DNA of 29,023 nt, taken from the IMG/VR virus record IMGVR_UViG_3300032240_000825, positions 1 to 29,023 of that record; one strand, given 5' to 3'. The notes below the pieces were generated by a model that was given only the letters and a program-made list of their open reading frames with translations, was not told the DNA's origin and searched no databases. A program made the position numbers and the translations under genes. This document shows, piece after piece, positions 10,850 to 27,939 of the stretch. Position 1 is the first letter of the stretch. Each line of letters starts with the position of its first letter. Origin of the DNA: a virus.

Positions 10850-11027
10850 AGTATCAGTAACAGAAATAGTCTTGTTCTGTTGGGCGGTATTGGCTACGGC
10901 TTACGCCCTCAAGTACAAGCAACAGGAAATGGGGGCGAAGATGTTTATCCGCGCAATCATGGAGGATGACAAGATGCGTGACGCCCTTGTCAAAGACTTT
11001 AAAGAACACATGGAGGAACAGACATGA
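10842..11027 (+). CDS. Small single-helix membrane protein
   Basis: The 61-residue product has one hydrophobic helix (residues about 5-24, SVTEIVLFCWAVLATAYAL) followed by a charged cytoplasmic-type helix ending EHMEEQT. GGGAGCAGAG precedes the ATG. Its TGA overlaps the VWA gene start (ATGA). Translation is likely from the double overlap. Confidence 0.65.
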   Translation: MIEVSVTEIVLFCWAVLATAYALKYKQQEMGAKMFIRAIMEDDKMRDALVKDFKEHMEEQT

Positions 11028-12292
11028 ACGGAATAGTTAGAAGCAAACTACCGGCTGAGAAACGAATCGAGCTGGTGCATGTAAGCCTGATGCGCGAGAA
11101 CAAGTTCGCTTGGTTCGCGGGCATGTTTATGGTCGGGTCTCTCAATGTAGTAGAGGACAAGATCACAGCGGGCACGAACGGCAGAGACGCTTGGTATGGC
11201 AGAGAATTCGTTGACTCTTTGACAGACAAAGAGTTAGCCTTTCTTGTCATGCACGAGAACATGCACAAGTGCTATCGCCACATGACAACATGGAAGGCAT
11301 TGGATGCAATCGACCGCAAGATTACGAATGCGGCGTGTGACTTCGTCATCAACATCCAGTTGCACGACATGGATCCCGAGGAAAAGTTTATAGCGTTTCC
11401 CCGTGACAAAGAAACAGGCGAGCGTAATGGTCTCTTCGATGAGGCGTATCGTGGCATGGACACCAAGCAAGTCTTCGACATTCTCATGAAGAAGAAGAAA
11501 GAAGGCGGGCGAGGCGGGCATAAAACCAAAGGCGGCAACGGAACAAAACGACAATCTGTCGATATGTTCGACGACGAGGATGGTGATGTTGGCTTCGACA
11601 ACCACGACTGGGAAGGTGCTCAAGCCCTGAGCGATGAAGAGAAGAAGCAACTTGAGCAAGAAGTTGAGCAGGCTCTTCGCCAAGGCGGTATCTATGCGGG
11701 CAAGTTTGGCAGTAAAGCACCGCGCGAAATCGGCGAGCTACTCAATCCCAAGGTTGATTGGAAAGAGGTGTTGCAGAGATTCGCCCGATCCAACATAAAA
11801 GATAGAGACTCTATCTCTTGGCGTAAGGCTCATCGCAACTTCTTGTGGCAAGACATCATCCTGCCTAGCATCCTCGGTAAGCGTGTGAAGAGCTTGCTTC
11901 TGGCGATGGACACATCCGGTTCTGTAGCAGGGCAGTTACTCACAGAGTTTCTCTCTGAGATGAACGGGCTTGTCAATAGCGTTGGCATCGACCGACTCGA
12001 CATCGTGTACTGGGACGCTGAGGTACAGGCGCATGAGATCTTTACTGGCGGTGCGAAAGACATCGTGCATCGTACTAACCCCAAGGGTGGTGGAGGTACT
12101 GACCCAGATGTTGTTGTTGATCTGATAGTAGAGAAACAATTGAAGCCTGACGCGATCATCATGTTGAGTGATGGTTACATGCACACCAACAGGAACAAGT
12201 GGGCGGTGATTACTCAGCCTACTCTGTGGTGCATCATCGGTAATGATAACTATGAAGTTCCTAATGGACAGAAACTTGTTATCAGAAACTGA
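11024..12292 (+). CDS. HExxH metallopeptidase-like and VWA domain protein (DUF2201 type)
   Basis: The 422-residue product combines a putative zinc site HENMH (H77, E78, H81) near the N-terminus with a C-terminal VWA fold. The MIDAS is complete: DTSGS (D296, S298, S300), T359 in GGGGTDPD and D383 in MLSDGY. Between them is an acidic, Gly/Lys-rich linker (residues 150-230). This is the DUF2201-like combination, and VWA proteins of this kind partner with MoxR/CobS ATPases such as the one at 8976. The two are separated by four small genes. Dyad copy 6 falls in the linker. The peptidase activity is inferred from the motif only; the metal-binding motif may be structural. Confidence 0.85.
   Translation: MNGIVRSKLPAEKRIELVHVSLMRENKFAWFAGMFMVGSLNVVEDKITAGTNGRDAWYGREFVDSLTDKELAFLVMHENMHKCYRHMTTWKALDAIDRKITNAACDFVINIQLHDMDPEEKFIAFPRDKETGERNGLFDEAYRGMDTKQVFDILMKKKKEGGRGGHKTKGGNGTKRQSVDMFDDEDGDVGFDNHDWEGAQALSDEEKKQLEQEVEQALRQGGIYAGKFGSKAPREIGELLNPKVDWKEVLQRFARSNIKDRDSISWRKAHRNFLWQDIILPSILGKRVKSLLLAMDTSGSVAGQLLTEFLSEMNGLVNSVGIDRLDIVYWDAEVQAHEIFTGGAKDIVHRTNPKGGGGTDPDVVVDLIVEKQLKPDAIIMLSDGYMHTNRNKWAVITQPTLWCIIGNDNYEVPNGQKLVIRN
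11541..11569. promoter_or_regulatory. Dyad element copy 6, inside the VWA gene
   Basis: GAACAAAACGACA, spacer ATC, TGTCGATATGTTC. It lies in the disordered linker of the VWA gene and encodes GTKRQSVDMFDD. There is no start codon nearby to serve. Confidence 0.8.
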
Positions 12293-24790: not shown

Positions 24791-25011
24791 GCGGATACAG
24801 TCAGAAAGTTGCTCGACTAAACAAAGCAGCTGACATCAAAAACTTGGGTGTTCGTTTGGGGAGATTCTGTGTCTCCAACGACATCCCAGTCAGTGTCGTC
24901 ATGGATTTTTTTGGTGTATCTAAACAAACTGTTTACAACTGGTTCTTTGGAACTCATGTACCAAGTTTGGAACACCAACAAAACATATCAACTTTCTTGG
25001 GTCGGGAATAA
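24787..25011 (+). CDS. Cro/XRE-like helix-turn-helix regulator
   Basis: The 74-residue product contains IPVSVVMDFFGVSKQTVYNWF (residues 33-53), a standard Cro/C1-like helix-turn-helix, then GTHVPSLEHQQNISTFLG. Overlap ATGA couples it to the ssDNA-binding gene. It could repress one of the palindromes at the promoters. Its own stop lies just before the structured leader at 25018. Confidence 0.85.
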   Translation: MSGYSQKVARLNKAADIKNLGVRLGRFCVSNDIPVSVVMDFFGVSKQTVYNWFFGTHVPSLEHQQNISTFLGRE

Positions 25012-25017
25012 TTTTCC

Positions 25018-25083
25018 GGGGGGCAACTAGCTCGACGGAGCGAACGGGGTAACCGTCAGCCCCCGTTGTCCCCCTTTCTTTTT
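25018..25083 (+). terminator. Terminator-like three-way-junction leader before the primase gene
   Basis: GGGGGGCAAC (25018-25027) pairs with GTTGTCCCCC (25065-25074), ten bp with one G-U, and TTTCTTTTT follows. The 37-base loop holds two further hairpins: GCTC-gacg-GAGC (25030-25041) and ACGG-ggtaa-CCGT (25044-25056). An alternative outer stem, CGGGGGC-like/GCCCCCG (25017-25024 with 25059-25065), would prevent the terminator stem. This suggests an attenuator or a structured RNA controlling primase expression. Confidence 0.55.
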
Positions 25084-25101
25084 GGCGTGCTTGGACACAA
25101 T

Positions 25102-27939
25102 ATGGCGGATGTTCGTTTACTTGAAGCAGTAGTCCCTTCTGAAGAAGGGTTCTATTGTGTACTTGGGCTGAAGAATGGTACTCACTATTCTCAGACTCAC
25201 CATAAAACAATACAAGAAGTAGAAGCCGAAGCTGATCGTCTGGTAGCTAACGGTGTAGATGTATTCTTTGGCTGTGGCAAGTTTGTCACTGACGAGAACC
25301 GCGATGCGGCCAACTGCGGTTTGATGAAGTCTTTCTTTTTGGATATTGACTGCGGCGAAGACAAAGCCAAGCCTGATAAACGTGGACGTATAAAAGGATA
25401 TGTAGACCAAGCAACTGGGATGCAGGCACTCAAGGAGTTGTGCAAAACTCTTAATCTACCGAGACCAACCATTGTGAACTCAGGGCGTGGCTGGCATGTT
25501 TACTGGCCGCTTACTGAATCTGTACCCAAAGACAAATGGCTACCCGTTGCTGAGACGTTTAAAGCCAAATGCTTGGAACACAAGTTTATTGTTGACCCCG
25601 CTGTACCAGCAGATGCCGCAAGGGTATTACGTATCCCCGGAACAAAGAACTTTAAAGACACCCCACCACATGACGTTGTTCTGATGCACTTATCAGAGCC
25701 GATGGAGTTTGATGACTTTACCCAACGTATGGGGCCGCTGGTAGAAGCAAAGAAGCCTTATGCCTCCAAGGAATTAGACGACTTCACAAAAGCTGTTATT
25801 GGTAATAAGCAGTCACGGTTTCGTACCATCTTGAAGAAAACCGCAAGCGGGTTTGGCTGTGAACAGTTGCGCTTGGTGGTTGAAGATCAAGAGAACATTG
25901 AAGAACCTCTATGGCGGGCGGGGCTATCCATCGCCCAGCATTGTGTAGACCGCGACAAAGCTATACACATCATATCTAAGAACCATCCTAAGTATGACCC
26001 TGCGGCAACGGAGCGCAAGGCCCACCAAATCAAAGGCCCGTATACCTGCGATACGTTTGATTCTTTTGCGCCGGGGATATGCCAGAACTGCATCCATAAA
26101 GGGAAAATAAAATCACCAATCGTACTGGGGCATGAGATTGCCAAGTCCGAGGAAGGCGATGTCATCGAATATAAAACCACAACTGCGGAAACCCCAGTAA
26201 TGGAATTTGTAGTTCCAAAGCTACCCAATAGGTATTTCCGTGGGAAGAACGGCGGTATCTATAAGCATCTCAAGGAAGAAAACGACGAAGGCGATGGGCC
26301 GTCAGTTGCGTTGATCTATGAGTACGACTTGTTTGTCACCAAGCGGATGTTTGACCCCGCGCTGGGGGAGACCATCCTGATCCGCAGGGTTCTCCCAAGA
26401 GATGGGGCCAAAGAATTTTCAGTACCTCTGGTTGATGCGTTGAGCAAGGATGAGCTACGCAAGGTTGTGTCTTTTCACGGGATCATTGCCGGTACAAACC
26501 AAATGGCATTGATCTTGGATTATTTGATGCAATGTGCAAAAGAACTACAGGTTTCACAAGAGGTGGAGATGATGAGATTGCAATTTGGCTGGGCTGACGA
26601 TGATGAGAAGTTTATTCTTGGGAACAGGGAGATCGGTGCAAGCTACGTTAAATACAGCCCGCCATCCAAAGCTACGCGGGATATTGCCCACGCTTTACGC
26701 CCTATGGGTTCTTTGGATGAATGGAAAGACATCATCAATGTCTACGATATGCCCGGGTTTGAACCCCATGCCTTCGCCGTATTTTCCGCATTTGGTGCGC
26801 CCCTCATCAAGTTCATGGGTATCAAGGGCGGCATCATCAACCTTATAAATAATAAATCTGGAACAGGTAAGTCAACCATACTTCAGGTTATGAACAGCGT
26901 CTGGGGTCACCCTGATGAGCTGATGCTCCAGTGGAAAGACACCCTGAACGTGAAGCTACACCGCATGGCGGTCATGTGTAACCTGCCGCTGGGTGTGGAT
27001 GAGATCACCAAGATGAGCGGGGATGACTTCTCCGATCTGGCCTACAGCGTGACTCAGGGTGCGCCACGCCGCCGGATGAAAGCCTCATCCAACGAGGAGC
27101 GTGAGTCCCAAGGATTCTGGGCAACCATGATGGTGGCTACATCCAACGCCAGTATGACGGACAAGCTCGAGGCATTGAAGTCTACGTCTGAGGGCGAACT
27201 GATGCGCCTGATGCAGTACAAGATCGACCCCACAAATAACCTAGACCGTGCATCTGCCAAGCAGGTATTTGGTAGATTACACAGCAACTACGGGTTGGCT
27301 GGCCAACCATATGCACAATATCTTGTACAGAATCTAGAGGAAGTTGTTGATACAGCCTTGAAGGTACAGGCTCGTTTTGACAAGGCAGTTAATATAGACA
27401 CCCGGGAAAGGTTTTGGTCAGGCATGGCGGCGGCAAACTTGACGGGCGCGGTTGTTGCGGCCAAGTTGGGCCTACACAACATCAACCATAAACGTGTTTT
27501 TGATTGGGCTGTCTCTGAAGTCTCTGAGATGCAGTCTGCTACCAAACTTACATACAACGACTACGCCACCATCGTTGGTGAGTTTTTGTTGAAGCACAAC
27601 CTCAATACTTTGGTCATAAACAAATACAGTAACTCCAAATCCGGTATTGCTGCTTCTCCACTTATGCTCCCTCGGGGGCCGTTGGTGGTTCGCCACGAAC
27701 CAGATGCCCGCCGTATCTTCATCATCCGTCAGTCTCTCAAAGACTTCTGCGTACTCAAGCAGGTGACATTTACTGACCTGTTGACTGGGTTGAACAAGAC
27801 GGGGGCGTTTGTTGCTGAGGTACGTACCAGACTGGATATTGGTACAGACATCAGCGCTCCACCGGTTGTTGCCCTAGAGTTTGACTCCGACCTGCTGGGT
27901 ATTGAGTTAGACGTAAACGGTAAAGGCGATGAGGATTGA
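25102..27939 (+). CDS. Primase (AEP/PrimPol type)-helicase fusion
   Basis: The 945-residue product primes and unwinds DNA. The N-terminal archaeo-eukaryotic primase domain has FLDIDCG (D81, D83), SGRGWHVYW (S127, H132) and DPAVPADAARVLR (D165, R174, R177). A Cys set follows (C316, C327, C330, possible zinc link). The C-terminal helicase domain has NKSGTGKST (584-592) with Walker B-like VDE (D633-E634) and an ATSN strand (N682), resembling DUF927-type superfamily 3 ATPases. The ATG at 25102 is chosen because the upstream extension from TTG 25066 starts in the leader's 3' stem strand. The ribosome site is poor, consistent with control by the leader. Confidence 0.9.
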   Translation: MADVRLLEAVVPSEEGFYCVLGLKNGTHYSQTHHKTIQEVEAEADRLVANGVDVFFGCGKFVTDENRDAANCGLMKSFFLDIDCGEDKAKPDKRGRIKGYVDQATGMQALKELCKTLNLPRPTIVNSGRGWHVYWPLTESVPKDKWLPVAETFKAKCLEHKFIVDPAVPADAARVLRIPGTKNFKDTPPHDVVLMHLSEPMEFDDFTQRMGPLVEAKKPYASKELDDFTKAVIGNKQSRFRTILKKTASGFGCEQLRLVVEDQENIEEPLWRAGLSIAQHCVDRDKAIHIISKNHPKYDPAATERKAHQIKGPYTCDTFDSFAPGICQNCIHKGKIKSPIVLGHEIAKSEEGDVIEYKTTTAETPVMEFVVPKLPNRYFRGKNGGIYKHLKEENDEGDGPSVALIYEYDLFVTKRMFDPALGETILIRRVLPRDGAKEFSVPLVDALSKDELRKVVSFHGIIAGTNQMALILDYLMQCAKELQVSQEVEMMRLQFGWADDDEKFILGNREIGASYVKYSPPSKATRDIAHALRPMGSLDEWKDIINVYDMPGFEPHAFAVFSAFGAPLIKFMGIKGGIINLINNKSGTGKSTILQVMNSVWGHPDELMLQWKDTLNVKLHRMAVMCNLPLGVDEITKMSGDDFSDLAYSVTQGAPRRRMKASSNEERESQGFWATMMVATSNASMTDKLEALKSTSEGELMRLMQYKIDPTNNLDRASAKQVFGRLHSNYGLAGQPYAQYLVQNLEEVVDTALKVQARFDKAVNIDTRERFWSGMAAANLTGAVVAAKLGLHNINHKRVFDWAVSEVSEMQSATKLTYNDYATIVGEFLLKHNLNTLVINKYSNSKSGIAASPLMLPRGPLVVRHEPDARRIFIIRQSLKDFCVLKQVTFTDLLTGLNKTGAFVAEVRTRLDIGTDISAPPVVALEFDSDLLGIELDVNGKGDED

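Follow-up and report, generated by a model that had tools for sequence, protein, structure and literature searches.

The 29,023-nt viral DNA analysed here (IMG/VR record IMGVR_UViG_3300032240_000825, positions 1 to 29,023, hereafter the window) carries, between a Cro-like ORF and a primase gene, a divergent int-alpA RNA, which is probably a cis-acting leader on the primase mRNA, operating as a switch in which a decoy strand and the Shine-Dalgarno (SD) sequence would compete for one hairpin loop. In a 201-nt scan the window RNA scores 38.5 bits against the Rfam int-alpA model (RF02996), only slightly past the gathering cut-off of 35.8, and the same leader in three related phages (G001-G003) scores 37.2-39 bits. 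The Rfam scan of the whole window or of longer sequence (G000) did not report the match, probably because of its speed filters. The window shares with int-alpA RNAs the CUAG...CGAA core, the order and lengths of the helices P1, P2 and P3, a conserved 3' tail and a phage or prophage location, and its three-way junction shows the covariation that marks the family structurally. It differs from typical members in its poly-G/poly-C P1 followed by a U tract, in a GAAC rather than GAAAA junction, and in its genes. The integrase/alpA setting behind the family name is absent, as the Cro-like ORF lies upstream, the primase downstream, and no integrase was found among the 13 window proteins scanned, while terminase, portal, DNA polymerase and helicase genes are present on the contig. 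That setting is the context of naming and not a structural criterion, many phage copies preceding endonucleases or replication genes. The window thus adds a primase, with no integrase seen, to the known contexts of int-alpA.

Table 1. Elements of the primase leader and flanking genes, in window coordinates
Feature	Position	Strand	Observation
Possible -10 box AATAAT	25007..25012	+	5/6 matches to TATAAT; overlaps Cro-like ORF stop; no good -35
P1 5' strand GGGGGGCAAC	25018..25027	+	pair probabilities 0.96-1.0
P2 hairpin GCUC-GACG-GAGC	25030..25041	+	pairs 25030-25033/25038-25041, by folding and covariation
Junction GAAC (family: GAAAA)	25042..25045	+	GAAAA in 78/116 relatives
P3 hairpin GGGGU (25046-25050)/GCCCC (25059-25063)	25046..25063	+	pair probability ~0.9; covaries
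P3 loop (L3) AACCGUCA	25051-25058	+	
P1 3' strand GUUGUCCCCC	25065..25074	+	by folding and covariation
U-rich tract TTTCTTTTT	25075..25083	+	linker from P1 to pseudoknot strand; possible terminator tract
Pseudoknot 3' strand UGGCG	25083..25087	+	pairs L3 25054-25058 (CGUCA), one G-U
Candidate P4 hairpin GUG-CUUGGA-CAC	25087..25098	+	SD in loop; weak in window
Weak Shine-Dalgarno GGA	25093..25095	+	6 nt before ATG 25102
Primase/helicase gene, 945 aa, DUF927	25102..27939	+	PF06048 E 3.7e-30; PHROG 25314 and primase/helicase families
Upstream Cro-like HTH ORF, 74 aa	24787..25011	+	PHROG 8 transcriptional regulator E 3.7e-4

RNA folding of the window gives P1, P2 and P3 pair probabilities of at least 0.89, with P1 enclosing a 37-nt loop (Table 1). 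A first, sequence-only reading of this DNA had described a mutually exclusive terminator within a three-way junction, and its observation is confirmed, and its interpretation supported, each in part. The 10-bp stem followed by TTTCTTTTT (25018-25027/25065-25074, then 25075-25083) and the GCTC-gacg-GAGC hairpin, here P2, are present as it drew them; P1 does begin just past the Cro-like stop, 7 nt away, and the ribosome site of the primase is weak, as it had also remarked. The folded stretch it delimited ends at 25083, 18 nt before the ATG. The three-way junction stands, with a different second inner hairpin: the proposed ACGG-ggtaa-CCGT (25044-25056) has a pair probability of 0.01 and gives way to P3; its 5'-strand/loop complementarity is at chance among 105 relatives, and we reject it. 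Likewise the GCCCCCG segment (25059-25065), which had been taken for a competing outer stem, resolves into the P3 3' strand, one unpaired base and the first base of P1, leaving no free competitor. The pseudoknot between 25054-25058 and 25083-25087 was absent from that reading. Nothing informative came from simple scans of the window for promoters and terminators.

The folding energy of the leader is not unusual for its composition (z -1.48, with 19 of 200 shuffles equally good), so the case for the fold rests on comparison. Across 28 relatives that align without gaps, 98.6% of the cells are paired and 10 of 13 pairs change on both sides, the P3 pairs covarying among them, and the covariation score of 0.793 compares with 0.216 after shuffling and at most 0.132 in slid controls; scoring used this gapless alignment, the MAFFT alignment having displaced P1. 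Compensatory changes in P1 among relatives include C-G to U-A at 25024-25068 and A-U to G-C at 25025-25067. In the main comparison set of 116 relatives less than 80% alike (105 for the loop-SD tests below) all four Watson-Crick combinations occur at both free P2 pairs, and even the 13 primase-linked copies taken alone show changes on both sides in two P1 pairs, one P2 pair and one pseudoknot pair. Compensation in both P1 and P2 is what the sequence-only reading had named as support in a covariance check. By these comparisons the fold is real and conserved, lifted above chance by conservation and not by folding energy.

The element is widespread. It occupies the same site in primase relatives of 69-98% identity and in one of 34% (locus L064), and with more than 20 related contigs carrying the same leader before this primase it is not rare there; the sequence-only reading had called such control otherwise rare at a phage primase. 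DNA similarity searches against cultured phages found none for the primase gene or the element, a single 21-nt match being attributable to chance, and at the protein level cultured phages offered only distant primases of less than 30% identity. A pattern scan of viral contigs in which the P2 bases were free found at least 120 stretches; P1, P2 and P3 are compatible in nearly all of them, and Rfam names many int-alpA RNA (RF02996). The scan of bacterial genomes gave at least 120 further stretches, those listed being mostly from Proteobacteria. Both scans fixed the letters CTAG..CGACGG..CGAA, and conservation of these letters in the resulting sets is therefore no evidence. The Rfam model, with hits in 22 of 185 genomes sampled from one bacterial class, yields a pattern-free set in which the P2 loop letters vary. 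Copies with P2 loops other than GACG, such as GGGUAGCUCCC and GGCUGAUCCCC (loci L341, L343, L350-L352, L354 and L356-L360), retain P1 and P3 and mostly also the pseudoknot and the loop-SD pairing.

Beyond the junction, L3 pairs with the 3' tail over at least 4 bp in 108 of the 116 relatives, where the maximum in 5000 trials re-pairing loops and tails was 59. The pseudoknot pairs are kept through sequence changes in the 13 primase-linked copies, and the Rfam consensus closes at its 3' end with AgGG, in agreement with this pseudoknot. In two copies (L168 and L184) P1-P3 are intact and the usual pseudoknot strand and start codon are absent, the element there having possibly decayed or moved. An ORF preceded by an SD follows P1 in 112 of the 116 relatives, with the start codon a median 33 nt away (10-90% range 28-42), start codons and SDs of relatives being assigned by script. 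Upstream, the motif TANNNT is most frequent at 12-13 nt from the 5' end of P1 (in 12 and 10 of the 116 sequences, against a background of about 1-2 per position), the position expected of a -10 element if the transcript begins with P1. AATAAT is not kept in all primase-linked copies, and for the window itself this evidence is weak.

These positions bear on the Rfam typing of int-alpA as 'Gene; sRNA', according to which the leader would be a small RNA of 60-70 nt with targets in trans, released by termination at the U tract or by processing. Such an RNA would fit a promoter-like signal of its own at P1 and, in some copies, a U tract able to terminate it. The fixed spacing to a start codon with its SD, the conserved, locus-specific pairing between L3 and the neighbouring gene's SD, and the absence of the terminator tract from most copies make it very improbable, and the evidence assembled here points instead to a leader acting in cis.

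L3 has a second potential partner in the SD region. Complementarity of at least 4 bp is found in 89 of 105 relatives, against permuted maxima of 60-63 and with none of 5000 permutations reaching it; under strict dereplication 36 of 44 still have it, where permutation reached 28 at most. Most of the complementary segments are located 5-9 nt upstream of the start codon, and the control segments (codons 2-8, +30 to +52, and upstream of P1) are at chance. L3 can pair with both the pseudoknot strand and the SD region in 84 of the 105, using the same L3 bases in 82 of these 84, so that the two pairings are mutually exclusive. An independent set of 29 elements, found with the Rfam model and no scan pattern, supports both pairings, each exceeding all 10,000 permutations in mean length. 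In two copies, L357 and L359, the pseudoknot strand and the SD site share identical 8- and 7-mers. At the level of the family, the P4 arms that flank the SD also pair more than permutations do.

This anatomy suggests a cis-acting translational switch with a decoy, whose direction and selector we infer. The pseudoknot strand would serve as a decoy for the P3 loop: with the loop held on the decoy, the SD, displayed in the loop of P4, would be usable, and with the loop paired to the SD initiation would be blocked, a ligand, a protein or folding kinetics presumably picking the state. Translational riboswitches and autoregulatory leaders with SD-sequestering pseudoknots form a general class, with which the leader shares its position, a conserved junction, a pseudoknot beside the SD and, at the level of the family, exclusive pairings of an anti-SD loop. 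We know of no class in which one hairpin loop has dual decoy and SD targets. Nor was a description of the decoy/SD mechanism found in the literature searched, where a single paper mentions int-alpA, as one row of a table listing predicted RNAs; the family's original description of 2017 may already show the pseudoknot. The window departs from the riboswitch class, and from its own family, in the strength of these elements. Its loop-SD pairing is only 3 bp (3-4 bp when its nearest relatives are included, 3-5 bp in most primase-linked relatives), and P4 has a pair probability of 0.36, falling to 0.01 with longer context, G25087 being common to P4 and the pseudoknot. The switch model is therefore weaker for the window than for the family, and there the element may act mainly as a pseudoknot/P1 block. 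The control leader envisaged by the sequence-only reading thus survives as a structured leader with compensatory changes, the exclusive pairing lying in the family's choice of partner for the P3 loop and not between an outer stem and a terminator.

The same SD-proximal parts could belong to a constitutive translation element, in which nothing switches and pseudoknot and P4 only expose the ribosome-binding site, shield it, or flag it to a protein of host or phage. The conserved P4 arms around the SD would be at home in such an element, as would the lack of a known ligand or protein partner. We nonetheless regard it as improbable, because a static element has no need for the recurrent match of one set of L3 bases to two sites.

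More weight attaches to control of transcription. P1 followed by TTTCTTTTT has the layout shared by intrinsic terminators and attenuators, a GC-rich stem directly before a U tract. In a transcription attenuator P1 and the U tract would stop most transcripts at 25075-25083, read-through would set the level of primase, and the junction and pseudoknot would tune it. At least five T in eight follow a GC-rich P1 in 23 of 23 primase-linked copies, a set incompletely dereplicated, against 36 of 111 others. Among 24 dereplicated distant primase leaders, almost all without int-alpA, 12 have a terminator-like hairpin 10-27 nt before the ATG, against 3 of 24 on the reverse complement, a distance that leaves no room for a promoter between hairpin and start. 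Distant primases with such a plain hairpin and no int-alpA upstream include loci L028, L034, L036, L037, L046, L057, L071 and L072. The U tracts of the primase clade and the plain hairpins at the same spot make attenuation possible, as a serious rival or as an addition to the translational switch. As the main explanation it is nevertheless unlikely. The U tract is not conserved across the int-alpA family and is kept only in the primase-linked copies; P1 closes a 37-nt three-way junction, unlike the stem of a simple terminator, and the terminator scan does not report P1 and its tract; and the conserved pairing beyond the U tract would be left unexplained. A non-exhaustive search for conserved pairing able to open P1, as an antiterminator would, found none, ACGG/CCGT being at chance in the 105 relatives. 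Of the terminator proposed from the sequence alone, the U tract after P1 in primase-linked copies remains and the alternative stem does not. Returning to the translational switch, in these copies the GC-rich P1 and U tract may in addition lower transcription into the primase.

The dual pairing offers the orphan int-alpA family a concrete and testable function, and its class would then likely change from sRNA to cis-regulatory leader. Extended to the whole family, int-alpA could be a large unrecognised class of phage translational switches, in which the junction senses a signal and moves the anti-SD loop from decoy to SD, with control of early phage genes (replication initiators, primases, antirepressors and free-standing homing endonucleases) and a terminator added in the primase-linked copies; we put this forward tentatively, as a reading that may well not hold. 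Given that the RNA occurs in 22 of the 185 genomes and, in many phages, ahead of genes for replication or homing endonucleases, any signal that it senses could act as a decision point common in phage development.

The genes downstream of the leader in viral contigs, among the matches listed, most often code for HNH/endonuclease VII type proteins; others among them code for DUF1376 primosomal proteins, primases or antirepressors. Bacterial copies are often downstream of an integrase (21 of 46); one E. coli copy, within a prophage-like element, has an integrase on one side and a hypothetical ORF on the other. At loci L088, L099, L106, L122, L125, L144 and others the gene behind the leader encodes a free-standing HNH or related endonuclease, and this suggests that the leader may travel with homing endonucleases. 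The window itself has a 422-aa ORF matching the HNH endonuclease family PHROG 1314 at 11024-12292 (+). Two int-alpA RNAs 364 nt apart, each before its own small gene, occur at L187 and L202. A different leader, closed by G5...C5 and with inner hairpins, lies about 90 nt upstream of the same primase family at L050-L054 and L070.
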